DNA from: Candidatus Poseidoniales archaeon
Lineage (GTDB): Archaea > Thermoplasmatota > Poseidoniia > Poseidoniales > Poseidoniaceae
Assembly (NCBI GenBank): GCA_003602485.1
Contig: QQSD01000078.1
Span: 29,593 to 63,306 of the forward strand
Reading direction: 5' to 3'
DNA: 33,714 bases
Shown: positions 2,961 through 32,100 of the stretch, piece by piece
Layout of the letters: every line of letters begins with the position of its first letter
How positions within the stretch are numbered: position 1 is the first letter of the stretch
Notes under the pieces: generated by a model
The model's database searches: none
Seen by the model: the letters and a program-made list of their open reading frames with translations, nothing else
What the model was told of the DNA's origin: nothing
Translations under genes and position numbers: made by a program

Positions 2961-5900
2961 TTACGCCGAGCGATTCTTTGCCAGATTGCAAATCGCTCGT
3001 GATTGTTCAGCAGACCAGCCTGTTTCCTGGAGTTGCATCAAAATACTCCGTTCATCTTCACCATCTGAGATGGCGCCAACTACCCATTCCACAGCGGATT
3101 CTCTGTCGTCTTCCTGCCAGTCCTCAAAGATACTGAGATCCACTTGAATTCGCGCCTTTCGAACCTTCGTTGAAGGCTCTTCTTCGGACGTAACTGACTT
3201 TTTCTTAGCGACCTTCTGAGCTGGTGCGGCCTGACGAGAAGGTGGTTGACGGCCAGGTGGACCTGAGGACTTTTGTCGCCCTGGTGGACCTGAGGACTTT
3301 TGTCGTCCCGGCGGGGATTTCGGCCCTGCCTTTTCCGCTGGCGTGGCACGTGGTTGACTTGCTTGCCGAGGCTGGCTGGCTTGCCGTCCTCGAGATGCCA
3401 TCGGTGAAACTCCTTTCCGGTCAAGCGCATCCAAGACACTTTCTTCCTCTTCCTCATCATCATCAAAGAAGTAGTCATCATCGTCCTCATCGTCATCTTC
3501 CTCTTCTCGCAGCATTCGTGCGATGATGAGGCCGACCACGAGAAGACCGAGCCCGCCACCGCCAAGGATGACCATCAAGGCTCCAGCATCGAGGCCAAAG
3601 AGGGCAGCATCGCCGTCACCTCCCTGTGGGACATAGGGACAACCGTCATCGTATCCATCAACACCTTTCGGTTGGTCGACACAGTTGTCATTATCGTCAA
3701 GAACACCGTCTCCGTCAGTATCACGTTCGGAAATGTGACATCCGAATTCATCCACCTGATTTCCTAATCCTATCGGTGTATTTGGGCAACGGTCCGGATT
3801 TCCAGCACCCTCGATGAATTGACCTGGGTCGTTCATTTCCAACCGCTGGTAATAGGCGTCACGTGTTGCATTCCAAGATGAATCTCCCCAGTTGTCGCCA
3901 AAACCATCATAATCAGTATCTTGCCATTGGGTTGGGTCGTCCCGGGTTGAGGCAGGTTCAAGTTCATCTCTCCACCCATCTCCGTCGTCGTAGCAACCTC
4001 GGTAGATTCTGAAGGATGTCCCTGCTTCATTAGGGCAATCATCTGCATTGGATGCTGGAGACGGATTGTCACCGTAGCCATCTCCGTCGGAATCGAACCA
4101 CTGCGTGTTGTCCGAAGGGAATGCATCACCCGTTTGATTCGTATGTAAGCCGGTAAGAGGGTCCAGATCATAGGCGTACATTCCAGAATATCCATCTCCG
4201 TCAATATCGGTGTCGAGCGCACTCTCATCCGTGCAGCCGTTGTCAAGGATAGGGAAACCAACTGGCGTATCATCACAAGCATCATCCAAATCTGACAAAC
4301 CATCGCCATCACTGTCGCGTTGGCTTTCTGCACAGCCATTTGTGTCGACCGTCTCACCGCTTGGGGTGGCAGGACAGGTGTCTTCAGGGTCATTGATTCC
4401 GTCGCCATCCGTGTCAGAAGTTCGCTGTTCAAGGCTACAACCCTCTGTATCCACAGAAACACCTGTGGGAGTCGAGGGACAAAGATCCAGATTATTGTTA
4501 ACGTCATCGTTATCGTCGTCGAGTTCTGATTGCGCACATCCTTCGGAATTGACTGGTTCATTCGCAGGGGTATTTGGGCACAAGGTATCCAAATCGTTGA
4601 TGACACCGTCTCCATCACTATCAGCAACGTCGATGAGCCGGCAACCAATTCCGTTGGTACCGTTGAGCACACCAGCTTCTGTCGGGCAATCATCGCCTTC
4701 AAATCCGGCCAATTGGTCACCGAACCCGTCCCCATCGGTGTCCAACCATTGACTGTCAAGATAGGGGAAGGCGTCACCCTGTTGATTTTCTCTAAGTCCA
4801 GAACTTGTATTCAGGTCGTATGAGTAGATGTCGGTATAACTGTCACCGTCACTGTCCAAGCAACCAACGACGGGGCGTGTTGAATTGCCCCAGATGTCTG
4901 AACATCCGTCTAATTTGAGTCCCATCCCATTGGAGCCGTTGTAAAGTGCAGTCCAATTATCTGGGAAACCATCGCCGTCAGTATCGTTCGCAGCGGCTGG
5001 ATAGAATCGGAAATGATCGGGATTGGTTGCATTTTCAGAGTCATTATCGCCGAAGCCATCACCATCGCTGTCCACCCATTGAGTTGCATCGAAGGGCCAA
5101 ACATCGGCACCATTTGTGATGTTCCACTCGAAGATACTTCCTACATCTGAAACGTCACTCGAACCGTCGCCATCAGAGTCCAAGCAGCCGTTGCGGTCAC
5201 GCCATGAAACTCCATAATCCCATGGACAATAGTCACCATGAACGTTGTCGGCGTCGTTATCTCCGTAGCCGTCGCCGTCATAATCCTCATACTGAGAAGC
5301 AAGATAGGGGAAAAGGTCTCCCGGTCCTGCGTTGGGGTCGTAAACCGGTACCGAACAGCAATCTACGCCGTGGTTGTCACCAAAACCATCGCCATCGGTA
5401 TCCAAGGCTTGCTTCCAATTGCTCTTGAACTGGTCACCGTCGTAATAGGTGCCGTCGTTGTCAGACCAACCGTCCTGGTCGAGATCTCCACACCCATAGC
5501 GGTCAATCCATGATGTACCGCCGACGTCATCACACCCATCGATGGAGTCCTTGTAGCCGTCAGCATCGTAATCTTCACACCCGAAAATGATGTAAGAAGA
5601 CAGTCCGCTGGTGGTTGGACAAGCGTCAGGGAGTGGGCCAAGGGGATTGTCACCGTGGTTATCTCCATCCGTGTTCATCCACTGGTCACCCACCGTAGGC
5701 ATAGCATCCACCAGATCAAAGACAAGGTCACGGTCTTGGTCCTCGTAGAGGCGTAGAATGATGACATCATCATTCACTGTATCCCAGTAGGCCATGTGGA
5801 CGGTCCCGTTGGCGTCAATCTTCGCGTTCAATTCTTCACGAACCACAACGTCTCCAAATTGTACCGACATCCACGGAGCAAATCCTGAATGAACACCGTT

Positions 5901-10936: not shown

Positions 10937-12250
10937 TCATTCCCACCCGTGCCAAATTTGCCATTCATCATCCCACCAATCCATGGTTCCATCGGGATGT
11001 TGGCGCCAAAGGACACCTTGGTCGTCAAGCGTGGTAGGCAAGCCTTGAGTGTCTGGAGAACCGTCTTCAAGGACTTGTGGTGTTGGCCCAAGTGAGGGAA
11101 GTTGGAGAGGTTCGGGCTCTCTGTTTCGAATCAACAGAATGAATACGAGCAAGGTGACGATCAACGCCAGAGCACCAATAGAGAACCATCCAACTGATTC
11201 GGTTGGTGTCTCGGGTCCAAGTGATGTCGATGGCATAGCAGCGCTTTCATTTTCGCCAATATCTAGCGGTGGCAAACGAATGAGATTCACCCCCTCAATG
11301 GAGGAAATCATTTTGTCGGTCACAATTTCGAGCGAAATCAAATATGCACCAGGTGGAAGTTCAGTGCAATCGAGGAAGGTGCTGTTGACGCCTTCAACAA
11401 CCTTGCCCTTGATACGCCAAACCTTCATCAAGGCGTCATAATCCATGTTTTGAGTTGTTGTCACTCTAATTTGGCAAGGTGTTTCTGTAGTATTTTGGTG
11501 ACCACTTGCAGAGAGTGAAAAGTCAGGAGGTGGACGATTATAGATGGTAAAGTTGAGGGTTGATTCTGCTGTTTGTCCCAAACCATTTCGGTAGGTCTCC
11601 TTCAATTTGTAATCGCCCGCAGGCCATGAAGAACAATCCAGTGTGTCCTCCGAATCAAGAACGCTGAAGGGTGCTCCGGTGAAGGTACGAACACCAGTCT
11701 CCCCGTAACGTGGGCCTGTTTCATCGCCAAAGTTACGATGGATTTCACACACTTCTCCAGTCCTGATGGAACTTGCAGCATTCAACTGGAGGTCGACCAA
11801 TGGAGTTTGCAATGCAGGCTTGAGAAGGAAGGTCGGGAGAGGATATGAAGCGATGGATTCTCCATCATCGTCAAAGAAATCGAGCCTCAAATCGTGTTCC
11901 CCCGCAGACCATGCATCGTAGACGAGACTCACATTTGTTTGACCTTCGAATGATACTTCGAGCGTTTCAAGAACGGCACGTTCTTTGTGCAAGCCGCGTA
12001 ATTTGATAATCAGGTCATTTTCCGCTGCAGTTGAATTCAACACAACAACAACACGAACCGCATCGATGTCCCCGTCTTGATTGGTGTCGATGGTGTCGTT
12101 TCTCAAAGCGAGCAAGGTTAAGCCACGCTCAGCAAGTTGTTCCTCTGCAGTTATATCAGCCGATACTTGCGGCATTGGTACGAGCAAGAGCATCAACAAA
12201 AGAGTGAGCGTATATGCCGTACTGCGACGATTATTGAGCATCTTGCTCAC
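10937..12250 (-). CDS. Secreted, membrane-anchored protein with tryptophan-rich cytoplasmic tail
   Basis: The 437-residue product has an N-terminal signal peptide (about 8-32, cleavage near VSA) and an extracellular part with one EF-like acidic loop near 56-67 (DTNQDGDIDAVR). Several beta-sandwich (Ig/CARDB-like) stretches follow, each with spaced cysteines and a CSSWPAGDY or CTELPPGAY motif. One membrane segment sits at about 352-375. The 61-residue tail ends with a compact motif, LWRQHPDGTMDWWDDEW, reminiscent of short W-rich (DUF2510-like) modules. I do not recognise a named family. Its start overlaps the upstream repeat-protein gene by 20 bases (a second possible ATG is at 12241). The downstream DUF4105 gene begins one base after its stop. 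These spacings argue for tight co-translation and a shared envelope function. Confidence 0.8.
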   Translation of the reverse strand: MSKMLNNRRSTAYTLTLLLMLLLVPMPQVSADITAEEQLAERGLTLLALRNDTIDTNQDGDIDAVRVVVVLNSTAAENDLIIKLRGLHKERAVLETLEVSFEGQTNVSLVYDAWSAGEHDLRLDFFDDDGESIASYPLPTFLLKPALQTPLVDLQLNAASSIRTGEVCEIHRNFGDETGPRYGETGVRTFTGAPFSVLDSEDTLDCSSWPAGDYKLKETYRNGLGQTAESTLNFTIYNRPPPDFSLSASGHQNTTETPCQIRVTTTQNMDYDALMKVWRIKGKVVEGVNSTFLDCTELPPGAYLISLEIVTDKMISSIEGVNLIRLPPLDIGENESAAMPSTSLGPETPTESVGWFSIGALALIVTLLVFILLIRNREPEPLQLPSLGPTPQVLEDGSPDTQGLPTTLDDQGVLWRQHPDGTMDWWDDEWQIWHGWE

Positions 12251-14811: not shown

Positions 14812-16206
14812 TTAAAGTCGCTGTTTTCCGAGACATTGACGGAAACAATCTGTGAGGTTTGTGTGTTGGAATTCGTAACCGCTTTCAAGCAGACGATGCG
14901 GTGTAACCCGCTGACCGTCGAGCACCAAAGCCTTGCCCATTTCTCCAAATAAGGTACGGATAGCAAAGCCCGGAACAGGAATGAACCACGGGCGCAGCAT
15001 CACTTTACCGAGCGATTTTGCAAAGGCCTTCTGCTGAACAGGCTCGGGGGCTGTTAGGTTGTAGGCACCCTTGCATGAGGGGGTCATCATCAGATGGTGA
15101 ATGGCGTAGATTTGGTCATCGAGTGAAATCCAAGAATAATATTGTCGCCCTCCACCAACAGGTCCGCCTCCACCGAGTTGTGTTGGGAGAAGGAGTTTCT
15201 TGAGGACACCACCCATCGGCGTCAAAACAAGACCGGTTCGCAGCCATACGGTTCGGATTCCGGCATCAACAGCAGGTTGTGCTGCTGCTTCCCAATCTTG
15301 GCAGAATTCTGCTAGGAAATTGTCACCTGGTGCTGAATCTTCGGTCAATATCTCGTCCTGTCGGTTTCCATAGAAGCCAATCGCTGAACCACAGAGAAAG
15401 TTGGACGGAGGGTTTTCGAGCTTGCTGAGAAGGGTTGCAAGATTTTTCGTGGGCGTCGTGCGAGAGTTGACGACGAGTTCCTTTCGCTTCTTGCTCCATC
15501 GTTTGTCTCCAATACCCGCACCGGCGAGGTGAATCACCGTGTCAAAACCATTGAGATCTCCTTCAATAACCTCTCCAGTTTGGTCGTTCCATCGAATGAC
15601 ATCATCGTTTTTTGCATCCGGTGGTAGGATTGTTGTCGGACGTAGAAGACGCGTGACCTGATGACCGGCAGCGGAGAGGAAGGCACACAATTGCAAACCA
15701 ATCAATCCAGTAGAACCGCTAACGAGGATACTATGTCGGGCTTTGTCTGCAGATTCTGAGATTCGTTTCAAATCGTTCTTCACCCGGAGTGTCCTGTAGG
15801 CAAACATTTGGTTCATTCGTCCCTTGACGGTGAAAGGTGCCGACCAAAATGTAAGGGGATGGAAAGGAAGTTTCCATTGTACTGTGTCACGAATTTGACT
15901 GGATTGGGAATCAACACCGATGAAACGATGTTCATGGTCCCATTTGCCAAAAGGTCCTTTCTCCATCACATCGTTGAAAACTTCTCCACTCACAACGTCA
16001 TAATGACGAGCAATCCACATCATTTTGACCGGTCCAAGACTCACCTTGAACCGAGTAGTTGCACCGTTCACTAAGGCTCCTGCTTCAATTGGTGCGATGC
16101 CTTCCCATTCGGGCATAATCCGTCGGAAGGCCCCTGGGCTGTTGTACCAATTCCACACGTCTTCAACTGGTGCATCATAGGTTGCGAGATGCTCGTAGGT
16201 TGGCAT
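14812..16206 (-). CDS. SRPBCC domain fused to TIGR01777-type SDR epimerase
   Basis: The 464-residue product is a two-domain fusion. Residues 1-150 are an SRPBCC/START-like ligand-binding domain (COG4276-like), opening with EHLATYDAPVEDVWNWY. Residues 158-464 are an extended short-chain dehydrogenase of the TIGR01777/YfcH (COG1090) group. That part has the NAD(P)-binding GSTGLIG at 164-170, VIHLAGAGIGDKRW, a GSAIGFYGN active-site region, and a C-terminal WFIPVPGFAIRTLFGEMGKA block typical of this group. The substrate is unknown for the family. It lies 9 bases downstream of the photolyase gene, with a GAGG ribosome site in the gap, so it is the third gene of the Nudix-photolyase unit. From memory, bacterial homologues of both domains are often found beside photolyase genes, which supports a light-stress link. 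Confidence 0.85.
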   Translation of the reverse strand: MPTYEHLATYDAPVEDVWNWYNSPGAFRRIMPEWEGIAPIEAGALVNGATTRFKVSLGPVKMMWIARHYDVVSGEVFNDVMEKGPFGKWDHEHRFIGVDSQSSQIRDTVQWKLPFHPLTFWSAPFTVKGRMNQMFAYRTLRVKNDLKRISESADKARHSILVSGSTGLIGLQLCAFLSAAGHQVTRLLRPTTILPPDAKNDDVIRWNDQTGEVIEGDLNGFDTVIHLAGAGIGDKRWSKKRKELVVNSRTTPTKNLATLLSKLENPPSNFLCGSAIGFYGNRQDEILTEDSAPGDNFLAEFCQDWEAAAQPAVDAGIRTVWLRTGLVLTPMGGVLKKLLLPTQLGGGGPVGGGRQYYSWISLDDQIYAIHHLMMTPSCKGAYNLTAPEPVQQKAFAKSLGKVMLRPWFIPVPGFAIRTLFGEMGKALVLDGQRVTPHRLLESGYEFQHTNLTDCFRQCLGKQRL

Positions 16207-16215
16207 GTCAGGTCC

Positions 16216-17760
16216 TCATTGATGGGCTGAATACAGCGAAGGGCCGGACCCTAAGGCAGATTGAACTGTACTCGGGTTGTTGTACTTCTCCATGTAGGCT
16301 TTGGTGTTGAATTTACGTTTGGTTGAATCTGAGGTCATGCAGCGAATCTTTCCGAAAACTGCACGTTCGGTCCAGCCTCGGTCAAACTTGCCCATCACCC
16401 ATCCAATACCAGTGTAGGAGTTCGGGTCGCGCCCGTCGAGTGCCCATCGGTCGTTGATGGCAATCATCCATTCCATGGCCAATTCAGGTGTGGGAGACCA
16501 TTCAAGGATTTTCTTCCCCCACAACATTCGGAGATAGTTGTGTATGATGCCTTCCCGGCGAAGTTGGTTTTGAGCTGCGTTCCACAACGGATCGTGGGTA
16601 GCAGCGGCTTCGAATTCCTCTAGCGTGTAGGTGTAGGGGCGCTGATCATTTGCGTGCTCTGCGAGCGTAATCTTGGCCCACTCGGGGAGGGAACTGTATT
16701 CCATGTGGTCATCAACCATGGCACAATGAATGAAACCGATGTCTCGCCATGTAATCACCTGGTCGAGGAAGGCTTCCACTGGTTCAGACATTCCCCACCA
16801 GCCCCGTCGACGTCCGTCATTGGGCAGATTGACTAACGATACATCCCAACGGTTCTGGGTAAAGATTTCATGAAGAATCTGATGAACACTAATGTGCCCG
16901 AAGTGGAGCCATGGAGAGATGCCGCTTGCACCTTTCTCGCCGGGATGGTTGCGTTTTTCGTGGTAATTTTCAAGACGCTCCGCAAAGAATTCTCTCCAAC
17001 GACGCCTTGCTTCTACCCAACCGCCTTTCTTACTGAGCACTGGCGACACGTTGTGGTCAATACTCAACGTCGAGAGTGCTTTCTTTCCAACGTCTCCTCC
17101 TTCGGAAACTCGCCATAGGAATTCATACGGTGTTTGCGGCGTCTGAGATTGATTGAATATTTCACTGACGATATATTCTGGAAGGAGAGGTAAGTCGGCC
17201 GCCTGTTCAAGGGGTCGAGCGCTCGGGAAGTCATGCATGTGTTCGAGGATAGTCTTGTGAAGATGACGTCGGAGGGAGTAGGCTGTCGAAAATGCTCTGC
17301 CTTGGGCTCGCATGGCCATGAATCCATTGGAGTCAACGACGCGGATTTCGCAGGGTTTCACCTTCAATGCAGTGTTGAGTACATGCTTGGGGTAGTAGGT
17401 GGGGTAGTCGTCAATGACGCATATCTTGGCACGATGTAGCCACTCTTTGAGGAGACCTGAAGCTTCTTTACGCTTGGTTTCAATGTAGGGGATATAGGTC
17501 ACACCGGTCTTGGCGAACGTGTCTCGATTGTCGAGCATGCCCTGCAGTACGAAGGTGGAAATGCGGTCGTTAGCCCACTTGTGCTGAAGAGCCAAACTTT
17601 CAATGACGACCAACGGCAAGTTGTGGGCTTTTGCGAGTTCAATACTGTGCTCGAGGGCGTGATTCCAATGAGGACGACGTGCTGCTGTCATCCAGTATAC
17701 GATGTATTCACCGGACGGATTGACAGCCCCGTGAATTTGGATACGGGTTGAAGCGATCAT
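16216..17760 (-). CDS. phr: Class II deoxyribodipyrimidine photolyase
   Basis: The 514-residue product should repair UV-induced cyclobutane pyrimidine dimers using blue light and FAD. The N-terminal photolyase alpha/beta domain begins with YWMTAARRPHWNHALEHS, the class II form of the antenna-domain start. The C-terminal FAD domain shows the class II hallmarks: an ITWRDIGF helix, LRREGIIHNYLRMLWGKKIL, the NDRWALDGRDPNSYTGIGW region and ERAVFGKIRCM near the end. The length is normal for class II enzymes (about 450-530). Its ATG overlaps the Nudix stop by 4 bases (ATGA), so translation is probably coupled. It runs divergently from ribA, which makes the flavin precursor this enzyme needs. The class assignment is firm; 6-4 photolyase or cryptochrome function is unlikely. 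Confidence 0.93.
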   Translation of the reverse strand: MIASTRIQIHGAVNPSGEYIVYWMTAARRPHWNHALEHSIELAKAHNLPLVVIESLALQHKWANDRISTFVLQGMLDNRDTFAKTGVTYIPYIETKRKEASGLLKEWLHRAKICVIDDYPTYYPKHVLNTALKVKPCEIRVVDSNGFMAMRAQGRAFSTAYSLRRHLHKTILEHMHDFPSARPLEQAADLPLLPEYIVSEIFNQSQTPQTPYEFLWRVSEGGDVGKKALSTLSIDHNVSPVLSKKGGWVEARRRWREFFAERLENYHEKRNHPGEKGASGISPWLHFGHISVHQILHEIFTQNRWDVSLVNLPNDGRRRGWWGMSEPVEAFLDQVITWRDIGFIHCAMVDDHMEYSSLPEWAKITLAEHANDQRPYTYTLEEFEAAATHDPLWNAAQNQLRREGIIHNYLRMLWGKKILEWSPTPELAMEWMIAINDRWALDGRDPNSYTGIGWVMGKFDRGWTERAVFGKIRCMTSDSTKRKFNTKAYMEKYNNPSTVQSALGSGPSLYSAHQ

Positions 17761-18260
17761 GTGCGACGACCTCCCGTTGGTGAAGAGGACACCGCTGCCC
17801 GGTACACAGAGTAGGGTCTGTTTCGGGCCGTTAAACCTGGTTGTCCATCAAGATTGACCGGTTGTGTCAATCCGTCAATGGCCAGTTGTTGCATGGTTTC
17901 AGAAACCCACTTCAGAGACTGGAGGTCATTGAGCGAAAACCACCCTGTTGACGAGATTTCGTCGTTACTTTCTTGAATCTGTCCGGCATGTATGGCGACA
18001 TCGTAACACAGGAATACTGCAGGGTGGTCCTTACGTAGTGCGGTTCGGACGCCTGCGAGTCCAAGTATGCGGCCGTCAAAGCCGGATTCCTCGACGAGTT
18101 CTCGCAGCGTTGCTTCCTCGGGACTTTCTCCTTCTTCGACGTGACCTTTGGGGAGTCCCCAGCAGCCTTCATGACGGCCCCGTGCCTCTTGAACGAGGAG
18201 TATTGAACGGTTGGCAACGACGCGGGCTGCAACGCCTAGGTCACACGATACGGTCGCCAT
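17757..18260 (-). CDS. Nudix hydrolase
   Basis: The 167-residue product contains a complete Nudix box at 39-60 (GHVEEGESPEEATLRELVEE followed by SG), with the catalytic REx2EE core intact. Nudix enzymes hydrolyse nucleoside diphosphates linked to another group; the substrate cannot be read here. Candidates include oxidised nucleotides, ADP-ribose or diadenosine polyphosphates. The frame opens at 18284, but I choose the ATG at 18260: a TATA-like TGATATAG (18284-18291) sits about 27 bases before it, the spacing for a leaderless archaeal message, and it would overlap the upstream ATG. It is the first gene of the Nudix-photolyase-epimerase unit and shares a 98-base divergent promoter region with ribA. 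Confidence 0.87.
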   Translation of the reverse strand: MATVSCDLGVAARVVANRSILLVQEARGRHEGCWGLPKGHVEEGESPEEATLRELVEESGFDGRILGLAGVRTALRKDHPAVFLCYDVAIHAGQIQESNDEISSTGWFSLNDLQSLKWVSETMQQLAIDGLTQPVNLDGQPGLTARNRPYSVYRAAVSSSPTGGRRT

Positions 18261-18283
18261 CAATTTCGTAAAATTTTCTTTCA

Positions 18284-18291
18284 CTATATCA
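18284..18291 (-). promoter_or_regulatory. TATA box of the Nudix-photolyase unit
   Basis: Reverse-strand TGATATAG is centred about 27 bases before the chosen ATG at 18260, the normal distance from an archaeal TATA box to its transcription start. This predicts a leaderless message and decides between two candidate starts. Confidence 0.5.
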
Positions 18292-18328
18292 AGAGCGGTT
18301 TAAGCCCAGTGGAGGAAAAAGACGAGTG

Positions 18329-18336
18329 TTTATATA
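18329..18336 (+). promoter_or_regulatory. TATA box of ribA
   Basis: TTTATATA is centred about 26 bases before the ribA ATG at 18359. A purine-rich GGAGGAAAAAGA stretch just upstream fits a BRE-like element. The distance predicts that transcription begins at or next to the start codon. Confidence 0.65.
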
Positions 18337-18337
18337 A

Positions 18338-18353
18338 GAAATCTAGCGATTTC
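18338..18353. promoter_or_regulatory. Candidate operator: palindrome between the ribA TATA box and start codon
   Basis: GAAATC-TAGC-GATTTC is a perfect inverted repeat with 6-bp arms and a 4-base spacer. It fills the space between TATA box and start codon, where a bound repressor would block polymerase. No identical copy is seen before crtI or the Nudix gene. Confidence 0.45.
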
Positions 18354-18358
18354 CTATC

Positions 18359-18970
18359 ATGCTAAGCAGCAACCAAAAAACTCTCGACGAACTACCCGAG
18401 TCCGACGCATCGCTTCCAACTAAGTTCGGAGATTTTCGCATCCGTGCGTTTCGAGATCCATCCAATGGCAAAGAACACTCCGTCCTCTATGTGGGTGACA
18501 TCTCAGATGGTAGCCCATTGGTCAGAATCCACTCGGAGTGCTTGACTGGTGATGCATTTGGCTCGCTACGTTGCGACTGCGGACCACAGCTCCAGGAATC
18601 GATGAAAGCCATCCAAGATGCCGGCAAGGGAGCCATCGTTTACCTTCGACAAGAAGGCCGTGGCATAGGCCTCTATGCCAAAATGCAAGCCTACGCACTC
18701 CAAGACATAGGCTATGATACTCTCGATGCTAACCTCGCGCTGGGCCTACCAGCAGATGCTCGTCGTTACGACATCGCAGCAGAGATGCTCTACGCAATGG
18801 GTGTCGATGGCGTCGAGTTGATGACCAACAACCCCGAAAAGCGCCAACAACTCCTCGACAATGGCATTCTGGTCACCAATCGCGTACCTCTCATCGTTGG
18901 ACGCTGTGCTCAAAATAATTCCTACTTGCAGACAAAGGCGGCCCGAATGGGCCATATGCTTCCTATCTGA
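18359..18970 (+). CDS. ribA: GTP cyclohydrolase II
   Basis: The 203-residue product carries out the first step of riboflavin synthesis, opening GTP to a diaminopyrimidine with release of formate and pyrophosphate. Zinc-binding cysteines are at 61, 72 and 74 ([14 protein letters not shown]). RQEGRGIGL (97-105), the AYALQ tyrosine (112), [15 protein letters not shown] (123-137) and MTNNPEKR (155-162) are all present. The length fits a stand-alone enzyme without the RibB domain. Many archaea use a different GTP cyclohydrolase (ArfA/GCH III) for flavins, so a bacterial-type RibA here is noteworthy. It has its own TATA box and probably a leaderless message, is divergent from the photolyase unit, and leads the peroxiredoxin, regulator and kinase genes. 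Confidence 0.94.
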
Positions 18971-18979
18971 GGCCTCACC

Positions 18980-19447
18980 ATGTCAACCAACCTTATCGGC
19001 CAAACCGTCCCCCAATTTTCCCTCGAAACTGACGACGGTACTGTCTTTGAAAGCACCTCGCTGAGCGGAACGTGGCGCGTGATTTTCTTCTATTCCCGAA
19101 ACAACTCGCCTACGTGCAAGCGCGGCTGCCTCACCTTCAAAGAGCAACACGACCTTTTTGCATCCGCAGGATGCTCTATCCTCGGCATTGGACCTGGAAC
19201 GGTTGAAGAGCAGGCAGTCCACAAAGCATCGCTCGGAGACTTACCCTTCCCGTTGCTTGCTGACCCCGAACGTTTGGTTGGCAAGGCATTCGGTGTACCC
19301 GTCCATCTCGGTCAGTTCCCTGCCAAATCATCCTTCTTGATTGGCCCTGACGACACCATTCACTACGTCTATGATTGGCTTTTCAGACCCCGAAGACACG
19401 TTGCAAAGATTCTTGCAGACATTTCAAAGGTCACGGGGGACAACTGA
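18980..19447 (+). CDS. bcp: PrxQ/BCP-type peroxiredoxin
   Basis: The 155-residue product has the thioredoxin-fold AhpC/TSA layout of bacterioferritin-comigratory protein. It reduces peroxides in the cytosol through a cysteine sulfenic acid. The peroxidatic site is NNSPTCKRGC (41-50), with Cys46 as the likely peroxidatic residue and Cys50 as the likely resolving residue. Typical PrxQ proteins have C-x4-C; here the spacing is C-x3-C, checked in the DNA. The remaining blocks (GIGPGTVEEQ, FPLLADPE, AKSSFLIGPDDTI) are normal. It starts 9 bases after ribA and ends immediately before the regulator's ATG, so the three are probably one transcript. Its presence between flavin synthesis and carotenoid genes fits protection from photo-oxidative damage. 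Confidence 0.9.
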   Translation: MSTNLIGQTVPQFSLETDDGTVFESTSLSGTWRVIFFYSRNNSPTCKRGCLTFKEQHDLFASAGCSILGIGPGTVEEQAVHKASLGDLPFPLLADPERLVGKAFGVPVHLGQFPAKSSFLIGPDDTIHYVYDWLFRPRRHVAKILADISKVTGDN

Positions 19448-20848
19448 ATGTGGGACGAATTGTTGCTTGAGGCAGGACTCAATGAGCGAGAAGTGCGGTC
19501 AATCATGATCCTCGGCTCGAGGCCACGCATGAAAGCCTCCGAACTCGCAAAGGAATTGAACACAACCAGACTCGACGCTTACAACAGCCTATCAAGACTG
19601 CAAGAAATGGGCATTGTCACCGCCACTGCTGACCGTCCGATGTTGTTTTCGAGCCTGCGAATCAACGAGGCGATGGAACACATCATCAACTCCAGAAAAC
19701 AACAACTTGACAGACTCATCCATGGCTTTGATGACCTTTCCAAAGGCATCACAGAGACCGATGCATCCTATGAGAAACAACGAAGAGATATCGATGACCC
19801 ACGCTTCGCCGTCCTGAAAGAACGAACGCACATTTACAATCGGCTGCAAAAGATGGCTTCGGAATCTGAGGAACGATTGATCCTCTTGCTCGGCCAATTT
19901 GGAATCCTACACCTTTGCCGCAACCCCGATGCTCTTGAGGCAGTCAACACCGCCTCAGTACGAGGCGTCGTGGTCCAAATCATCACCCACCTTGACGGTC
20001 GTACGTTACGATTTTTTGACCAATTAGACGCCAGTATTGAAGTTCGCCACTCGGATGAACTCGACTCCCTCGGGTTCGTGCAAGACCAGTCAGAAGTGAT
20101 TCAATACCTCAACATTGAGGACAATCCTGTCGGGCGAGGAAAGGAAGACGCAGCTCTCATCATTGAATCTGGACCCTTCTCTCAGGCTCATCTGCATCTG
20201 ATTGATGCCATCTGGGAAGGCGCTGTACCGCTTGCAACAGCACGTGCCCGCTTTACCGAGAATCAAATCAACGACCCGTTGCGCCTGACCATCGGAGAGG
20301 GCTCGTTCCTGAAGAATGTCTCCGTTGCCCTCGGCTTTGACGGCGAGCTACCTGACGAAGACACTCCGTTCGACCCCGACGCTTTCTTCGCTGCAGGACA
20401 TGAAGTGAACGAGGCACGAAGGCGCCTGACTGAAGGGAAACTCTCCAATCTCAAAGTTCTTGGAATTGACATCGGGCGAATGCTTCGTCAAATCGGCAAC
20501 CGAGTCGGCCAAGAAATCGCTTTCTCACTCCGTTCTATAGAAAATGATATCGAGTTTCTGGACGAGATGATGGACTGGTGGGAACATGCTGGTTTGGGTT
20601 TACTCCAGTACAATGTCGACCCCCAATTCCACGTCCGAGTAGGCCTTAATCACCCTCCAGTGGACGACATCGATGCTTTGCCAATGTGGGAAATGGATGA
20701 TGGAATTATCGAAGGAGCTCTTTCAACTCGCTTCGCCAAGGAAGTCAATGTCGTGATCCAGCGAACTGAAGGCGAAGGAGACGCAAGCGATTTGTGGCGC
20801 TACATCATTCACCGCCATGAAATGAAAATGATTGAATTGGGCGATTAG
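19448..20848 (+). CDS. TrmB-family transcription regulator with additional C-terminal sensor-like domain
   Basis: The 466-residue product opens with a winged helix-turn-helix of the TrmB type (about 10-75, with KASELAKELNTTRLDAYNSL as the DNA-reading region). A charged coiled linker follows (about 75-125), then a PLD-like alpha/beta effector domain (about 125-275) as in other TrmB proteins. The last 150 residues (about 320-466) are an extra domain. Its GLGLLQYNVDPQFHVRV and GIIEGALSTRFAKEVNVVI strands loosely resemble V4R-type small-molecule domains; this resemblance is unverified. TrmB proteins usually sense sugars or metabolites and repress or activate nearby genes. Its position among ribA, peroxiredoxin, photolyase and carotenoid genes makes it the natural candidate regulator of this island. 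The ATG abuts the preceding stop. Confidence 0.8.
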   Translation: MWDELLLEAGLNEREVRSIMILGSRPRMKASELAKELNTTRLDAYNSLSRLQEMGIVTATADRPMLFSSLRINEAMEHIINSRKQQLDRLIHGFDDLSKGITETDASYEKQRRDIDDPRFAVLKERTHIYNRLQKMASESEERLILLLGQFGILHLCRNPDALEAVNTASVRGVVVQIITHLDGRTLRFFDQLDASIEVRHSDELDSLGFVQDQSEVIQYLNIEDNPVGRGKEDAALIIESGPFSQAHLHLIDAIWEGAVPLATARARFTENQINDPLRLTIGEGSFLKNVSVALGFDGELPDEDTPFDPDAFFAAGHEVNEARRRLTEGKLSNLKVLGIDIGRMLRQIGNRVGQEIAFSLRSIENDIEFLDEMMDWWEHAGLGLLQYNVDPQFHVRVGLNHPPVDDIDALPMWEMDDGIIEGALSTRFAKEVNVVIQRTEGEGDASDLWRYIIHRHEMKMIELGD

Positions 20849-20860
20849 AGCGGTGAACCC

Positions 20861-22099
20861 ATGAAATTGCGCACATTTCTCAGTTTTTTCCGTCAGTTGA
20901 AGGGTAAAAAACCAATCGATATCGATAAGATTCAATCAATGGGACTTCTCGCTGTCAAACTCGGCCAAATCTTTGCACTGCGGCCCGACCTCATAGAGCC
21001 GGAACGCTGTATCGAATTGCAACGGTTGTACAGTCGGGGGGCTACCATTCCAACCGAAGACTCTCAGCGCCTTCTTGACAGGTTTGCACCAGCTGATTTC
21101 AGAAGTCATTTCCAATCAATTGAGCCCGTACCATTTGCTGCTGCGAGTATCGGTCAGATCCACCGAGCTGTCCTCAACGACGGCACCCGCGTGGTCGTAA
21201 AAATCATCAAAGCCGATTTTGAAGCTTCCTTCAAGCGGGATGTTCGTCGTATGAAGCGCTGGATACGCACCGGTCTTTTGTTCAATCCACGTTTGCGAAA
21301 GGTCGGCAACCCAATTGGACTTCTCGCCCACATCGAAGACTATACCCTACGTGAGTTGAATCTTACTAACGAGATAGAAGGCCAAAACCAACTTATTGAA
21401 AAGGCAGCGGAAATTGAGAAACACTTTCCAATGCCCAAACTGAAATTTCCCCGCATGTGGGACGAACTATCCAATCAGCATGTTCTCGTCATGGAGGAAA
21501 TTATCCATCCCACACTCGAGACTCGCCTTGAAGAAAAATCACTCAACTGGGCCAACATGTTGGAATTGTTCCGAATTCACGGCGCCTTCATGTTCGGAAT
21601 CGGCACCTTCCACGGGGACCTGCATCCTGGCAACGCTATGATGAACGACGATGGTGACTTTTTCTTCATTGACACGGGTGCGATCTGTAACGCACCACCT
21701 CACGTCCGCAATGCCCTCTTTGGATTCTTTTACTTCCTTGCTAAGGGTGAACTCAAGCATGCCTTTGACGCAATGTTGACGATGGCAGCTGTACAACCCA
21801 CAGGGAAAACTCTGCAGACCTATTACGACTCGATGAACGATCTCTATGATGGCTTCGTTGGAACTTCGGTTAGTGAAGTTTCTTTGACAGAACAGATGAT
21901 GAAGACTGTCAAAGCAGCAGTGCTAGCAGGTTGCGCGTTCGGAGAAGAGGCCTTTCCAATCATTCGCTCTCTGATGTACATGGACGGGATGGTCCTCAAA
22001 GGACACCCAGAAGTTGATTTAATCAGTTCCATGGGGCCATATCTTGACGAATTTTCCGTCCTTATTGACCCCTACTCCATTATTTCCGAAGAAAAATGA
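20861..22099 (+). CDS. ABC1/UbiB-family atypical protein kinase
   Basis: The 412-residue product shows the diagnostic features of the ABC1 (ADCK/UbiB) family: the KLGQ motif at 33-36 inside a helix continuing FALRPDLI, the AAASIGQ loop at 93-99 in place of a normal kinase glycine loop, the ATP-site Lys114 (VVVKII), the VLVMEEI hinge, the catalytic HGDLHPGN near 251-258, and the metal-binding FIDTG near 268-272. Members support isoprenoid-quinone metabolism in bacteria and mitochondria and affect isoprenoid lipids in chloroplasts, mostly as ATPases. Here it precedes the carotenoid genes, so a role with isoprenoid lipids is plausible but inferred. It starts 12 bases after the regulator with a GGTGA ribosome site. 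A T-rich terminator follows, so it ends the ribA transcript. Confidence 0.88.
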   Translation: MKLRTFLSFFRQLKGKKPIDIDKIQSMGLLAVKLGQIFALRPDLIEPERCIELQRLYSRGATIPTEDSQRLLDRFAPADFRSHFQSIEPVPFAAASIGQIHRAVLNDGTRVVVKIIKADFEASFKRDVRRMKRWIRTGLLFNPRLRKVGNPIGLLAHIEDYTLRELNLTNEIEGQNQLIEKAAEIEKHFPMPKLKFPRMWDELSNQHVLVMEEIIHPTLETRLEEKSLNWANMLELFRIHGAFMFGIGTFHGDLHPGNAMMNDDGDFFFIDTGAICNAPPHVRNALFGFFYFLAKGELKHAFDAMLTMAAVQPTGKTLQTYYDSMNDLYDGFVGTSVSEVSLTEQMMKTVKAAVLAGCAFGEEAFPIIRSLMYMDGMVLKGHPEVDLISSMGPYLDEFSVLIDPYSIISEEK

Positions 22100-22107
22100 A
22101 GATGTTA

Positions 22108-22126
22108 TTTTTTTAGCATTTTTTTT
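22108..22126 (+). terminator. T-rich archaeal terminator after the ABC1-family gene
   Basis: Two T-runs (7 T at 22108-22114 and 8 T at 22119-22126) directly follow the stop of the kinase gene. Archaeal RNA polymerase terminates at such runs without a hairpin. The run lies before a new TATA box, separating the ribA unit from crtI-crtB. Confidence 0.65.
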
Positions 22127-22141
22127 GGTCAAAAACCTTCC

Positions 22142-22148
22142 TTTATAT
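22142..22148 (+). promoter_or_regulatory. TATA box of crtI
   Basis: TTTATAT is centred about 26 bases before the crtI ATG at 22171, and CAAAAACC upstream could serve as a BRE-like element. The geometry matches the ribA promoter and predicts a leaderless message. Confidence 0.62.
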
Positions 22149-22170
22149 GGTCGTTATTTGAGCGAAGAAC

Positions 22171-23784
22171 ATGGCAGCCACTGCTCAGCCGAAAGTCGCA
22201 ATCATTGGTGCAGGTCCCGGAGGTTTGGCCTCAGCACTCCTGCTCGCTAAATCAGGTGTTGACGTCACGGTCTTTGAACGGTCAGGAAGCGTTGGTGGAC
22301 GGAACAAGGTATTCGAGAGAGACGGCTTCAAATTTGACCTCGGGCCCACCTTCTTCCATTACCCAGAGGTCATCGAAGACATCTTCAAGGCCATCGGAAT
22401 GGACGCTCACGAGGAACTCAAACTTCACCGACTTGACATGAATTACCGACTCATCTTCGGACAAGGCGGGCAATTGGACTGCACGAGTGATTTGGACGAG
22501 ATGACCGAACGCATTCGAGACCTTTCTGGAGATTTCAACGCCGAGGCCTTCAAGCGCTATGTCGTTGACAACCGCCTCAAACTCGACAAATCAAAGGCTT
22601 GCCTTCAGGAACCATGGTATGGACCAACTGACCTGCTCTCCAAGCGAGCCATGCGAGTGGCAAGTGTGCTGCGACCTCAGCGCTCTGTTGCAAAAGACCT
22701 CATGAAGCTCTTCGATGATGACCGTTTGATGTTGGCAATGTCATTTCAGACCAAGTACCTCGGAATGTCTCCCTTCAACTGCCCCAGCCTGTTCACCATG
22801 CTTGCCTTCCTCGAATATGAATACGGCATCTTCCACCCCATTGGCGGGCTGGGAAGCGTCAGTGCACGTATGGCAAAAATTGCAGAAGACTTGGGTGTTA
22901 AATTCCGGCTCAATGAAGCAGTTGAAGGCGTGATCATGGACGGCAAGACCATCAAAGGCGTACGAACTGCCAAGGAGGAGTTCTTAGCTGAAAAAGTCAT
23001 CATGAATGCTGATTTTGCCAACGGCATGACGCAGCTCTTCCCTGACAATGTCCGTAAAAAATGGAGCAATAAAAAACTGGACAACAAGAAGTATTCCTGT
23101 TCCACCTTCATGCTCTACCTTGGCATTGACCGGACCTACGACGACCTCCCACATCACCAAATTTATGCTTCATCAAATTATGAAAATAACCTAGAGGACA
23201 TTGAAAAACACCATCGAATCACGTGGGATGACCCTTCCATCTACGTTCAAAACGCATGCATTACCGACCCTGGTCTCGCTCCCGAAGGCTGCTCTACAGT
23301 CTACGCACTCGTACCAGTATCTCACATTCACGAAAACATTGACTGGGACAAAGAGAAGGACGCATACCGCGACAGAATCATCGAACAGATTGAAACGAAA
23401 CTTGGCTATGAAAACCTCCGTGACCACATCGTGACTGAAATGATCATCACCCCCGAAGATTGGGGAGACCATTGTTACCGAGGAGCCGTTTTCAACTTGG
23501 CTCACGGCTTGGACCAAATGCTCTGGCGCCGACCAAAGAATCAATTTGACGAAATCAAGAATCTGTACCTTGTGGGTGGAGGAACTCACCCTGGAAGTGG
23601 ACTACCCGTCATCTATGAATCCGCACGAATTAGCAGCAAACTCCTGCTCGACAGCCTCGGAATCATACCCGACTGGAATGGTGTTGACACCTGGTTTGAA
23701 AGCCGTAAGCGAAGCAAGCAAGGACGTATGGCCTTGGATAAATCATCCAAGGATTCGTCAACAGGCACACCAACATCGGCTTGA
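22171..23784 (+). CDS. crtI: Phytoene desaturase (CrtI type)
   Basis: The 537-residue product is an FAD-dependent desaturase that should introduce double bonds into phytoene on the way to lycopene or a related carotene at the membrane. The N-terminal dinucleotide fold is IIGAGPGGLASALLLAKSG (about 8-26), with the flavin-contacting ERSGSVGGRN near 36-45 and FDLGPTFFHYPE shortly after. The C-terminal carotenoid-desaturase signature is LVGGGTHPGSGLPVIYESA (about 467-485). The length is normal, slightly extended by a basic Ser/Lys-rich tail. CrtI is inferred over an oxidase or isomerase of the same superfamily mainly because crtB follows at once. How many desaturation steps it performs cannot be read. 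It heads a separate TATA-driven transcript. Confidence 0.92.
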   Translation: MAATAQPKVAIIGAGPGGLASALLLAKSGVDVTVFERSGSVGGRNKVFERDGFKFDLGPTFFHYPEVIEDIFKAIGMDAHEELKLHRLDMNYRLIFGQGGQLDCTSDLDEMTERIRDLSGDFNAEAFKRYVVDNRLKLDKSKACLQEPWYGPTDLLSKRAMRVASVLRPQRSVAKDLMKLFDDDRLMLAMSFQTKYLGMSPFNCPSLFTMLAFLEYEYGIFHPIGGLGSVSARMAKIAEDLGVKFRLNEAVEGVIMDGKTIKGVRTAKEEFLAEKVIMNADFANGMTQLFPDNVRKKWSNKKLDNKKYSCSTFMLYLGIDRTYDDLPHHQIYASSNYENNLEDIEKHHRITWDDPSIYVQNACITDPGLAPEGCSTVYALVPVSHIHENIDWDKEKDAYRDRIIEQIETKLGYENLRDHIVTEMIITPEDWGDHCYRGAVFNLAHGLDQMLWRRPKNQFDEIKNLYLVGGGTHPGSGLPVIYESARISSKLLLDSLGIIPDWNGVDTWFESRKRSKQGRMALDKSSKDSSTGTPTSA

Positions 23785-23793
23785 GGGTTGAAC

Positions 23794-24783
23794 ATGGAGA
23801 AAAGCGTCATCAATCAGGCTTATGCCTATTGCGAAACGGTTTGTAGAAACGCTTCAACGACCTTTTATTCCTCATTCTCAGCTCTCTCAATTCAAAAGCG
23901 CAAAGCGGTCCATGCAGTCTATGCACTCTGCCGCTGGGTTGACGACATCGTTGATGGAGACGAAGAACCAAGCATTCTCGAAACCATTGAACTTCGTCAA
24001 GAAACAGATGAACGCCAAAAAATCATCACTGAAATTCACGATGGAAAAACTCCCTCTCTGCCTGAGGAAGAACACCGGCGTCGCCTCATGGCCCTTGTTG
24101 ACATTCGTTTGAAACTTCACCGAGCACATGCACAGGACATCGGTGAAGAGGAACATCCCATCTTCATCGCACTCCAAGATGTCTTCAGCCGATACGCAAT
24201 CAAACTCAGCGATTTCGAGACCGTCCTCGAAGGGATGGAAGACGACCTCTACCCGGTCAAGAATCGCACTTGGGACGAATTACGTTCATACTGTTACAAA
24301 GTTGCCTCGGCCGTTGGCCTTATTCTGATTGAAATCTATGGTTACGAGGATCGAGCCGCTCGCCTGCACGCGATTGATTTGGGCATTCAAATGCAATTGA
24401 TCAATGTCTTGCGGGATATTAACGAAGATATGGAGCGAGGGCGGGTCTATCTGCCCTTGGACATCCTTGCATCCCACGATATGACCCTCGACCAACTCCA
24501 ATCCCCCGGAATTGCTCAAACTGCTGCCTGGAGAGGTTTCATCATTGAATACGTGGACATGATCAAGCGGCATCAAGAATCAGCGAACCATCTTTTCGGC
24601 TACCTCGATGCCCGGGCACGCGTCCAGCCAGAAATTATGGCCGATGCCTACGCATCAATCTTGAGTGAAATCGTGCGACGCTCAGGTGACGTCTTCACCC
24701 AACCTGTTCGCCTTTCGTTCGCCCGTAAGGTCCTGCTCGGAATTCGATTGAATCTTCGTAAAATAAGAGCACGAATGTTCTGA
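23794..24783 (+). CDS. crtB: Phytoene synthase
   Basis: The 329-residue product condenses two geranylgeranyl diphosphates to phytoene. Both aspartate-rich motifs are present: DDIVD at 50-54 and the LRDINEDMERGRVYLPLD block near 205-222. The family's opening region (ASTTFYSSFSAL) and RKAVHAVYALCRWVDD are also clear. I choose the ATG at 23794. An upstream TTG at 23788 is in frame but adds only two residues and would clash with the GAGGG ribosome site (23783-23787). The gene begins 9 bases after crtI and is surely co-transcribed. It converges on the Asp-box lipoprotein gene 38 bases away. Neither GGPP synthase, lycopene cyclase nor a carotene cleavage enzyme is in the window, so the final product stays open. 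Confidence 0.94.
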   Translation: MEKSVINQAYAYCETVCRNASTTFYSSFSALSIQKRKAVHAVYALCRWVDDIVDGDEEPSILETIELRQETDERQKIITEIHDGKTPSLPEEEHRRRLMALVDIRLKLHRAHAQDIGEEEHPIFIALQDVFSRYAIKLSDFETVLEGMEDDLYPVKNRTWDELRSYCYKVASAVGLILIEIYGYEDRAARLHAIDLGIQMQLINVLRDINEDMERGRVYLPLDILASHDMTLDQLQSPGIAQTAAWRGFIIEYVDMIKRHQESANHLFGYLDARARVQPEIMADAYASILSEIVRRSGDVFTQPVRLSFARKVLLGIRLNLRKIRARMF

Positions 24784-29166: not shown

Positions 29167-32100
29167 TCATTCCAATTCTTCAAGGGTCGCCTGAACTTCT
29201 TCTGTTCCATCCATGATGTTCTCTTCAAGGGCTGGGACGTTCTTTTCGTCAGTTTCCGCCTTGCTTGCAGGCGCCCGGAAGGCGTCCCATGATGTCAAAA
29301 GATCAATGTCCTCGAGTGCCCGCTTTCGTCGGGCGAGTACAAAGGCTACCAAACCAACAAATGCGACCAATCCAGCAACCGCTGCGCCGAGAATCAAGGC
29401 ACGTTGGTCTGTCTCTTGGACCTCAACGACGAGACTGCGCGTCACCACGTCGACGTTGGCTGTTTCGCCCTGTCCATCCTTTGCAATGATTTTCAAACTC
29501 GGCCTACCGGTGCTTTCGGGTCGCCATTCAAGGACGCCCTCCCAAATACCGTCACCATCTTCGTCTGTGAGATTCACCTCCCACTGTTGGATGTTAAGCG
29601 TCAAGTTTGCACGAACATCCTGCGTGGTACCGTCAGCGTCATCAAGACGAATACTGATGCTTAATCGGTGCAATTCATCTTGAGAAAAGGTCGTCTCACT
29701 CAGACTGAGAGAATCACGGTCCAGCGTTGGTAAACTGGATTGCATGGTGATGTTGACGTGTTCCTCTGCCCATTTTCCTCGTGCGTCTTCAACATAAAGA
29801 GAAAGATGGTATTCACCAGGTGCAAGCCCGGATAACTCCTCAATGGAACTCGTTGATACTACTTCTGGGAAACTCGTCTGCGGTGACCAGAGGCGCCATT
29901 CCCGAACGGTCAGGTCGTTGTCAGCATCGAATGAGGCTTCCTCCAATCGTAGTACGGCACCGGGTTCGAGAGAGGCTCTGTTCTCTGGAGAGATCAACAC
30001 GAGTGTGGGCTCGGATTCAAACACGGTGAGCACAAAGGTTTCATCGCGGGAATCTCCATCCTCATCGGTCAAGGTCACCGTGAGCGTATGTTGACCCGCT
30101 TTGAGGTCAAAGGCGTGAGAGTTGAACGGGTCGACATCAACGAGAAGAGGGTCGGGGTGAAGTGAAGAGCGGAGCGTAACCGTGAAGGCATCACCGTCAT
30201 AATCCACGCTTTGGGATGCATCAAACATCAACGTCTGTGAGGAAAAGGATTGACTGCCATTGAGAGGACTGACCAATCCAAGAACTGGGGCCGATGGCAC
30301 AATGGTGACCGTCTGCTGTGCAAGAACAGGGTCGTGAATGCCGTCATCAACGCTCAGAGTAATGGTGTGGACACCCGCTGTCAAACGCCCGTCGAAATAA
30401 AGCCAATCTTCTCCCACTGGAGTTAATCTTCCATCAAGGTCACTGGTCCATGTCACTACTAAAAATTCAGAACCACCATAGGGTGAAAATGGAACGCAAT
30501 GCCATGTTCCTTCGGTTGGGAAGGTATCACAAGCAGCGTCAAAGTCACCCGAGCCATTGGCTGAGAATTCGATTAATTCAGAGGACTCAAAGGTTTGACT
30601 TGCAGGAGTTTCAATCACGGCTCGGGGAAGTGAATTTTCAACTGTCATGAGTGTGGTTGTGGAACGGCTTTGATTTGCGTGTTCGGCACGGTCGTCAGTG
30701 ACTTCCATCGTCAAGGTGTGGACTCCGCGTGAAAGATAGCCTTCCCAAATGATAGAACCGTCGTTGAGGATTCCGTCGAGTGAAGAAATGTAGGTGGTGG
30801 TTAAGCTATCGCCTTCTGGGTCAATCGTAGCGCTCCCGTCAAGAGTCACCAGGGATTCGCTGCTGTTGGTGTCCCTTGAAATTGTGAAACTGGGCTCAGG
30901 TATCTCGTTGTACAGAATGACCGGGACGCTGTACGTGGCGTTGTTGCCCACGGCATCAAAAGCCATGACCGTTAACGTGGCGGAAGCTGGCGGGTCTTCC
31001 GTGGTGTAATCAAAGGTATACGTGAGTTCCTCAGGACACACCCACTGATTGCCCCAACCCATGCCTTCGCCGTTGAAATCAATGGCGCATGCGAAATCAT
31101 CACCTTCGGGGTCAAACGTGCCCGTGGTATTCACAACCACGGTGCCAGTTTGCGGCATAATGAGTTCGCTCCATGGATTGAGACTCGGTTCGAAGTTCAC
31201 AACGAGTTCTGGAGGCAAATTGACCCATTCCATCGTTCGAGTTTCCGCAACACAATGGGACGGATCACAAACTCCCAAGGTGATTGCATGAATGCCATCT
31301 GAGAGTTCGCAGAAAGGCGGCACCTGGGAAAGCGGGTCACCGTTAACAAGGAAGGCAGCACCATCAGCGGGGTGGTTCGAGGATTGGAACACACCAGCGC
31401 AGCCGGCAACAATATCTCCGTCGATTGAACTTGTCCAAGTGAACGAAAGCGGGTCGTTGTCTAAATCCCAAGACCGGCTTGCATTAAACAACACTTCGCC
31501 TTTGGAAGGATAGATCATCCCGTCAAACGGTGTGTCCCAATTCACAAAGGGTGCTTGATTATCCAACTCCAACAAACAATAGACGATTTTATCGTCGTCA
31601 AGAGTTGTGGTTGTTGAATTGGAGACACTGTCATAACCGCAAGAACTGGTAGCGGTATTGTAGGATGTAGCGCCGCTGGAAGTCCAACGTTGACCGATAA
31701 AATCAGGGAGAAGGACATAGCCGAGGTCGTTGGTATACAGCTGTAAGGAGGGCTCAAAATCGCTAAACGACACGTTGATGCTCGCCATCGGGATTCCATT
31801 TGAGAAATTATTCACGGCCCAGACCGTCAAATCATAGGCCACGTCAACAGTCGCACCTGGCGCCAAGGAGGCTCCAGCAACATCGATTGCCTGAGGCTGG
31901 TGGAGGTGGAGGTCTGAAGTTGCATCAAGTGTGAGAAGGTGGGGTGAGGCAGTTTGACCGTCAGCATCAAGAAGATTTGACCAATTGACTTGGCTGTTTT
32001 CAAACTCAATGGACCCCGTGCAAGTTGAGGCAATGGTATTGCCAGTACCGTTCAAATTTGGATGGTCAATCAAATGAAGACAATGTGTCCCAGAAAAGGT

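Follow-up and report, generated by a model that had tools for sequence, protein, structure and literature searches.

A 33.7 kb stretch of DNA (hereafter the window) from a member of Poseidonia (Marine Group II) carries, at positions 14812-24783, an island of nine genes arranged in two divergent arms, in which DNA repair, flavin, peroxide and carotenoid genes are gathered around a regulator that we call REG. All nine genes had been named in an original prediction made from the letters of this DNA, and all were recovered in the positions and orientations given there, the Nudix, class II photolyase and SRPBCC-epimerase genes facing left and ribA, prxQ, REG, ABC1, crtI and crtB facing right, with 74 bases between the arms. 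No earlier description of the island, of REG or of the promoter element shared by its arms was found in the literature searched, and it is the regulator type, the loss of its redox cysteines and the operator that are new here. To our knowledge, the regulation of sunlight responses in archaea beyond the haloarchaea has been little explored, and the island suggests that the archaea most abundant in sunlit seawater may have a sunlight-protection switch unlike the bacterial one.

Gene content of the island

The proteins of the window were assigned to families with Pfam and NCBIfam/TIGR profile models at their curated cut-offs. The features of the island are the following:

14812..16206, minus strand: fusion of SRPBCC and NAD(P)-epimerase (TIGR01777/DUF1731; 313 bits, above cut-off)
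16216..17760, minus strand: class II cyclobutane pyrimidine dimer (CPD) photolyase (TIGR00591 and nearest solved structures)
17757..18284, minus strand: Nudix hydrolase (profile match), overlapping the photolyase start by 4 bases
18285..18305, minus strand: promoter element GCTTAAACCGCTCTTGATATA of the Nudix-photolyase-epimerase arm (10.1 bits)
18316..18336, plus strand: diverged copy of the element, AAAAAGACGAGTGTTTATATA, before ribA (-4.8 bits)
18359..18970, plus strand: RibA, GTP cyclohydrolase II, the second copy of the genome (262 bits, above cut-off)
18980..19447, plus strand: PrxQ-like peroxiredoxin (above the Pfam AhpC-TSA cut-off, below the NCBIfam cut-offs)
19448..20848, plus strand: regulator REG, with a TrmB helix-turn-helix (HTH), a PLD-like middle and a putatively V4R-derived C-terminus without redox cysteines
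20861..22099, plus strand: ABC1/UbiB-type atypical kinase (profile match)
22129..22149, plus strand: promoter element TCAAAAACCTTCCTTTATATG before crtI (13.5 bits)
22171..23784, plus strand: CrtI-family phytoene desaturase (487 bits, above cut-off)
23788..24783, plus strand: CrtB-type phytoene/squalene synthase (SQS_PSY; profile match)

Conservation across Poseidoniales

The order was sampled with 292 Poseidoniales genomes from 22 genera, divided between the family of the window (f1) and another family (f2, presumably Thalassarchaeaceae). A search with REG (E <= 0.001) matched 222 of the 292 genomes and 20 of the 22 genera, some of them through a paralog only; neighbourhoods were fetched for 60 of these 222 genomes, and each count below is restricted to the loci whose contig reaches far enough. 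The peroxiredoxin gene lies immediately 5' of REG in 56/58 loci, ribA lies upstream of REG in 53/58, the divergent photolyase is found in 47/51 and the epimerase is present in the arrangement in 45/48. This core (epimerase-photolyase on one side, ribA-prx-REG on the other) occurs in both families, with protein identities to the window of about 40-70% in the other family, so that the gene order is conserved well beyond close relatives, and the original prediction withstands the first of its own tests. Genes outside the core vary from genus to genus, and the flanks are partly retained within genera. The Nudix gene is present in 31/55 loci and ABC1 follows REG on its 3' side in 45/55, while a gene labelled crtI is found in 39/50, a count that is inflated because some of the labelled genes are FAD amine oxidases (43-48% matching). 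Downstream on the same strand, crtB was found in 10/46 loci, with 11 more loci carrying it beyond the epimerase. The attachment of crtB to the island is thus loose.

REG and the class II photolyase also occur together at the level of genomes. The photolyase search matched 207/292 genomes; taking REG orthologs at E <= 1e-100 and photolyases at E <= 1e-70, 175 genomes carry both, 91 neither, 16 REG only and 10 the photolyase only (six of these ten with a weaker REG match), that is, an agreement in 266/292 (Fisher 1.5e-46, a p-value that does not count independent events, the genomes being related). Rhodopsin shows a similar trend and was found in 169/292 genomes, 152 with both REG and rhodopsin, 39 with REG only, 17 with rhodopsin only and 84 with neither. 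Every genus with proteorhodopsin also encodes photolyase, whose history is described as a patchwork of gene transfers (PMC6461757). In the named collection, 79 of the 80 best titles (out of 211 confirmed relatives) are archaeal. One record, CALDQY010000037.1 (L156), shows a Poseidoniales island on a contig filed under an uncultured Rhodobiaceae bacterium metagenome-assembled genome (MAG), and is probably mis-binned or mislabelled.

A promoter element shared by the island genes

Both divergent arms carry, beside the TATA box, the element RAACA-N5-TTYATA, the two copies standing face to face. In many loci further copies precede ABC1, crtI and additional genes of the island. A matrix was trained on f2 intergenic regions only, 49/52 of the training strands carrying the element, and reads purine, A, A, C, A, five loose bases, T, C/T, ATA, W, S. 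The scan with this matrix covered the 60 loci with the island, 13 loci with the paralog and the window itself. It was limited to upstream regions with a gap of 30 or more and 240 or more usable bases, before open reading frames (ORFs) no shorter than 110 aa, the remaining ORFs being left aside. At 13 bits, a threshold picked after the scores were seen, the element is reached by 2/311 control upstream regions (4/311 at 10 bits), and both of these controls belong to the gene right after REG in genus g14. For the held-out genus g2 of f1 the same threshold gives Nudix 7/7, ribA 7/8, ABC1 7/8 and crtI label 2/5, with 0/92 for other genes; among the f2 promoters outside the training set it gives ABC1 7/18, crtI 3/7, crtB 1/1 and epimerase 1/1 (other genes 2/159), and in the rest of f1 ribA 4/10, Nudix 2/9 and crtI 2/9 (other genes 0/53). 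The operon-internal peroxiredoxin genes lack the element, as expected (0/18, 0/8 and 0/2).

The crtI site TCAAAAACCTTCCTTTATATG is the best of the entire 33.7 kb and that of the Nudix arm the second best. The copy before ribA, AAAAAGACGAGTGTTTATATA, was assigned only by its position (20 bp to the opposite box) and by the presence of the same sequence in other Poseidonia. Window sites of 8.5-10 bits that are not before island genes lie at 11842-11862 and 15917-15937, on the minus strand. Before crtI, crtB, ABC1 and the epimerase, 29/33 sites of at least 10 bits start 27-49 bases upstream of the called start, a distance that would fit leaderless or short-leader transcripts. Where both arms of an intergenic region score, the box-to-box spacing is 18-20 bp in 27/48, 31-33 bp in 11/48 and other in 10/48; the phasing gives p below 1/20000 over all classes, owed mainly to the 18-20 mode, and helical phasing is only suggestive for the longer classes (p 0.054).

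A strict form of the pattern was also run over eight whole genomes, where it gave 15 matches, seven at island promoters and eight elsewhere (mostly within or between unrelated genes), with eight matches for the reversed control. One perfect match elsewhere, at G012:C44:46498-46514 (L219), lies between MsrA-like and MMPL-like genes, and is possibly a further member of the regulon, or due to chance.

REG and its paralog

The regulator had been described as TrmB-like, which holds for its HTH (PF01978, 33 bits with a cut-off of 25.6) and is incomplete for the remainder of the protein, made of a PLD-like middle and a putatively V4R-derived C-terminus. The structural model of REG (466 aa) has a mean pLDDT of 70, with values of 78-93 for aa 121-220. 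In Foldseek searches the best matches of the model are 5bpd (E 5e-13; TM by query 0.25, the protein being multi-domain) and 3qph, and the middle region matches PLD folds, for example 1byr (TM by target 0.72), in agreement with the PLD-like domain of TrmB/TrmBL2. The segment aa 335-445 matches the MsvR model NF053755 with E 3e-8 and 33.5 bits, far under the cut-off of 220. The Pfam V4R model itself gave no match in the window REG (E up to 0.001) or in two orthologs (E up to 1), and in two copies of the paralog described below (REG2) and in a more distant homolog (L191) it gave 24.7, 44.3 and 63.4 bits, two of the three being above the cut-off of 31.

REG2 is 31-37% identical to REG and was read in 13 Poseidoniales loci (L181-L190 and L198-L200), its neighbour families being assigned by Pfam on representatives. 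In 11/13 loci REG2 stands between a TPR protein gene and an IscA-like gene (Fe-S_biosyn), and 9/13 loci, all nine from f1, also have nearby a gene that weakly resembles GCV_T and is perhaps YgfZ-like. An Fe-S_biosyn gene also adjoins L191, which comes from outside the order. The REG2 neighbourhood, whose regulator keeps the MsvR-type cysteines, is a candidate for an Fe-S or redox regulon of archaea. Four cysteine columns are filled in 13/13 REG2 sequences each, and in 0, 0, 0 and 12 of 61 REG sequences; for the three columns that correspond to the MsvR-type redox cysteines, the REG counts are 0, 0 and 12 of 61, against 13/13 for REG2. In L181 and L182 the last three REG2 cysteines lie 26 and 8 residues apart, the same spacing as C206, C232 and C240 of MaMsvR, which mutagenesis implicates in rearrangements affecting DNA binding (PMC3729527). 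REG thus shares its descent with a V4R regulator of the redox type and appears to have lost the sensor. The presence of the cysteines in MsvR and L191, taken instead of a tree, suggests that the cysteine-bearing state may be the ancestral one, and REG would then be a case of a redox regulator that lost its sensing cysteines and now holds a different regulon. A further cysteine of REG, Cys157, is near-invariant (57/61).

Photolyase and flavin supply

The photolyase matches TIGR00591 with E 1e-100 and 338 bits, under the curated cut-off of 550, and is therefore regarded as a divergent class II member. Its nearest solved structures are 8oet (E 3e-68) and 2xry (E 3e-67), both of which we take to be class II photolyases, and it keeps three tryptophans with the spacing 0, +21, +28 seen in 8oet, presumably the electron-transfer triad. 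A second protein of the photolyase/cryptochrome family is encoded on another contig of the window genome (G000:C33, L224:2929-5274) by a 781 aa ORF that scores above the Pfam DNA_photolyase cut-off; the L224 stretch around it gave no match to the strict form of the element, a pattern better suited to other genera.

The island RibA is a duplication. Among nine island genomes, two copies are found in seven and one copy in two (both incomplete assemblies), and the nine genomes without the island all have one copy; GTP cyclohydrolase (GCH) III of the ArfA type was found in 0/18 genomes. The RibA pathway leads to FAD, and its ribityl-uracil intermediate is also the source of the antenna that class II photolyases use, an 8-hydroxy-deazaflavin. 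The extra RibA would therefore raise the common precursor of both photolyase chromophores, and the wiring of chromophore supply into a repair regulon, through an extra GTP cyclohydrolase, would parallel what is seen in bacteria.

Accessory genes and a rhodopsin variant

The recurring accessory genes, each identified on one representative, encode a short-chain dehydrogenase (SDR), an FAD amine oxidase, an ABA4-like protein and a fasciclin-cupredoxin protein. Additionally, genus g3 has DUF1295 3' of REG, and in genus g5 the photolyase and epimerase genes are separated by a RudS-type gene (TudS-DUF1722), in which (L041) TudS (PF04463, 112.6 bits) is followed by DUF1722 (PF08349, 29.5 bits), the domain order of RudS. 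RudS strips tRNA of 4-thiouridine, which is sensitive to near-UV, and frequently occurs in bacterial light operons (PMC11417400).

In two of the three fetched g14 loci, a rhodopsin gene stands directly 5' of the island ribA and replaces the photolyase arm, with the shared element between the two genes (genomes G139 and G241, the latter with a Pfam score of 166 bits for the rhodopsin; REG-oriented coordinates of the two, L053:7402-8202 and L054:6507-7307). Coordinates suggest a rhodopsin likewise before ribA in a further g14 genome, G042, and the third fetched g14 locus, G137, retains the epimerase. In both L053 and L054, REG is followed on its 3' side, with the element, by a gene grouped with the fasciclin-cupredoxin proteins (c13 in L054, and a truncated or frame-split form of it in L053).

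Comparison with known systems

LitR/CarH clusters are light-inducible gene clusters also known from Thermus and Streptomyces, and their likeness to the island starts with the joint presence of photolyase and carotenoid genes. In Pseudomonas the photolyase is likewise accompanied by an SDR, an FAD oxidoreductase and RudS, the regulator is, as here, encoded inside the cluster, and an operator is shared (PMC9758184, PMC11417400); the putative counterpart of this operator in the island is the sequence element carried by several promoters. Several differences are nevertheless clear. The regulator is of the TrmB-PLD-V4R type and not MerR, the photolyase is class II, the element abuts an archaeal TATA box, and the supply concerns flavin and not pterin, since the GTP cyclohydrolase of the LitR regulon is folE (PMC9758184) and that of the island is ribA. 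The earlier remark that no CarH is visible and that a TrmB-type protein takes its place is borne out, with no MerR_1 (PF13411) in 12 genomes, some of them incomplete, and a TrmB-type regulator kept across the order; BLUF regulators were also found in 0/12. As the defining regulator is absent, the island is not a CarH/LitR member.

MsvR of methanogens joins an HTH to a C-terminal V4R; it regulates oxidative-stress genes and has a DNA motif before its own gene (PMC3729527). REG differs from it in the missing cysteines, the added PLD-like domain and the TrmB-type HTH. That HTH is common to TrmB/TrmBL2, TrmB being a sensor of sugars. A TrmB family protein of Haloferax volcanii, presumably OxsR, differs from REG in being a single winged helix that works by thiols. 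This protein runs an oxidative stress response (PMC9426492). Finally, CrtR of Corynebacterium glutamicum controls a light-dependent carotenoid operon without being a CarH regulator and without a known chromophore, and differs in belonging to the MarR family and in that phrB of this organism is not light-regulated (PMC6739363).

Proposed mechanism and alternative explanations

We consider, with a probability of roughly two in three, that the Poseidoniales island is a regulon for photoprotection, a functional counterpart of the LitR/CarH clusters under an unrelated regulator. In the proposed mechanism, REG, the third gene of the ribA operon, would bind RAACA-N5-TTYATA as a dimer or tetramer and control both divergent promoters (the DNA repair arm and the flavin, peroxide and regulator arm), and thereby also itself; depending on the lineage, it would also act on the promoters before ABC1, crtI and accessory genes. 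From the position of the element, directly against the TATA box, REG would most likely act as a repressor that keeps TBP/TFB off the promoter in the dark and lets go in daylight. The peroxiredoxin, the carotenoids and ABC1 would handle photo-oxidation. The additional RibA copy, the RudS-type gene and the rhodopsin neighbours together point to sunlight, and we infer that light, or a product of light, is the signal. The regulator, the exact DNA element and the gene list make the question testable with purified protein and with existing metatranscriptomes.

Expression data for related organisms, found in a single metatranscriptome study, fit this photoprotection reading only in part. For one Thalassarchaeaceae MAG, 36 genes are reported to fall in 24 h dark incubations, including crtD (by name), uvrA, uvrC and cofH; the word photolyase is absent from the main text of that report (PMC9723583). 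CofH was considered as a member of the regulon and rejected, its family matches being under the cut-off in 11/11 genomes and away from the island contig positions.

A number of observations weigh against a light-responsive regulon controlled by REG. In the dark incubations rhodopsin is unchanged, two other MAGs show no change and the authors read the depletion as field-active genes ceasing (PMC9723583). Ten of the 16 genomes with REG and no photolyase belong to genus g14, rhodopsin was not seen in 39/191 REG genomes, and a correlation such as that between the distances of REG and of the photolyase (r 0.933, 37 loci) is expected for any two genes under vertical inheritance. With respect to the element, the ribA arm of the window has drifted (-4.8 bits), 62/110 distinct intergenic regions score under 8 bits on at least one arm, crtB has 0/9 in g2, ABC1 is without the element in 11/18 cases in f2, and the remainder of f1 has 0/3 for crtB and 0/6 for ABC1. 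The strict pattern has a low sensitivity and misses weaker sites, so that there may be further targets elsewhere. Additionally, the V4R part of the REG model has a pLDDT of about 48-76.

The best surviving alternative, which we hold to be possible at clearly less than even odds, is that the signal for the regulon is not light but a stress, oxidative or metabolic, felt through the level of peroxide, flavin or isoprenoids, photolyase and carotenoids riding along since surface cells meet both. It would account for the peroxiredoxin being the most constant neighbour (56/58) and agrees with the Fe-S/redox link of the REG2 family, and CrtR, which gives light-dependent carotenogenesis without a known chromophore and was reported to answer GGPP (a result that a second group could not reproduce), offers a precedent (PMC6739363). 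Nevertheless, the V4R redox cysteines have been lost (0, 0 and 12 of 61), although Cys157 (57/61) could still act, and the photolyase, RudS-type and rhodopsin neighbours suggest light.

It is improbable that the element is instead read by a dedicated TFB/TBP variant, as a special BRE/TATA, with REG acting elsewhere. The element does lie immediately 5' of the TATA box, where TFB binds; however, the usual BRE position consists of the bases adjacent to TATA, which are variable here, AAACA being 5 bp away. Besides, the paired boxes show a preferred spacing, and beyond the REG island the eight genomes show no enrichment of the strict pattern.

That the island is a CarH/LitR cluster taken over entire from bacteria, the regulator alone having been exchanged, seems comparably doubtful. 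The gene kinds are the same (photolyase, SDR, FAD oxidoreductase, RudS), and a Tsukamurella plasmid has a full-length epimerase homolog beside an FAD oxidoreductase, DUF1365, a methyltransferase, a lipocalin and an ECF sigma factor, the one photo-oxidative-looking cluster among the four epimerase neighbourhoods read (of 49 records). However, in this search, made on plasmids only, photolyase is annotated in 0/4 of these neighbourhoods, and the island photolyase is 23-34% identical to the seven matching plasmid records. A part of the content may still have been imported around an archaeal regulator, as some of the accessory genes (RudS-type, DUF1295, SDR, FAD oxidoreductase) are of kinds that bacterial light clusters also contain, and the independent assembly suggested in the original prediction may then apply to only a part of the island. 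A gene order that persists without common control, merely because small genomes (1.0-2.3 Mb, with flanks partly kept within genera) rearrange slowly, is very improbable, as the core is constant while the flanks differ between genera, and is largely refuted by the shared element (2/311 controls).

Returning to the photoprotection regulon, an unlikely further step would make REG itself the switch, that is, a new class of archaeal sensor of light or of a photoproduct, acting like CarH with B12. In this scenario a V4R regulator with a thiol-redox sensor and a link to Fe-S would have been duplicated, after which the cysteine triad was discarded and the V4R/PLD pocket taken by a chromophore or light-made molecule (flavin/deazaflavin, retinal or carotenoid).

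Flanking genes

Very large proteins flank the island. On one side, at window positions 2961-9317, a protein of 2118 aa carries FG-GAP repeats, and on the other side, at 29167-33687, a protein of 1506 aa has beta-helix and weak PKD matches.

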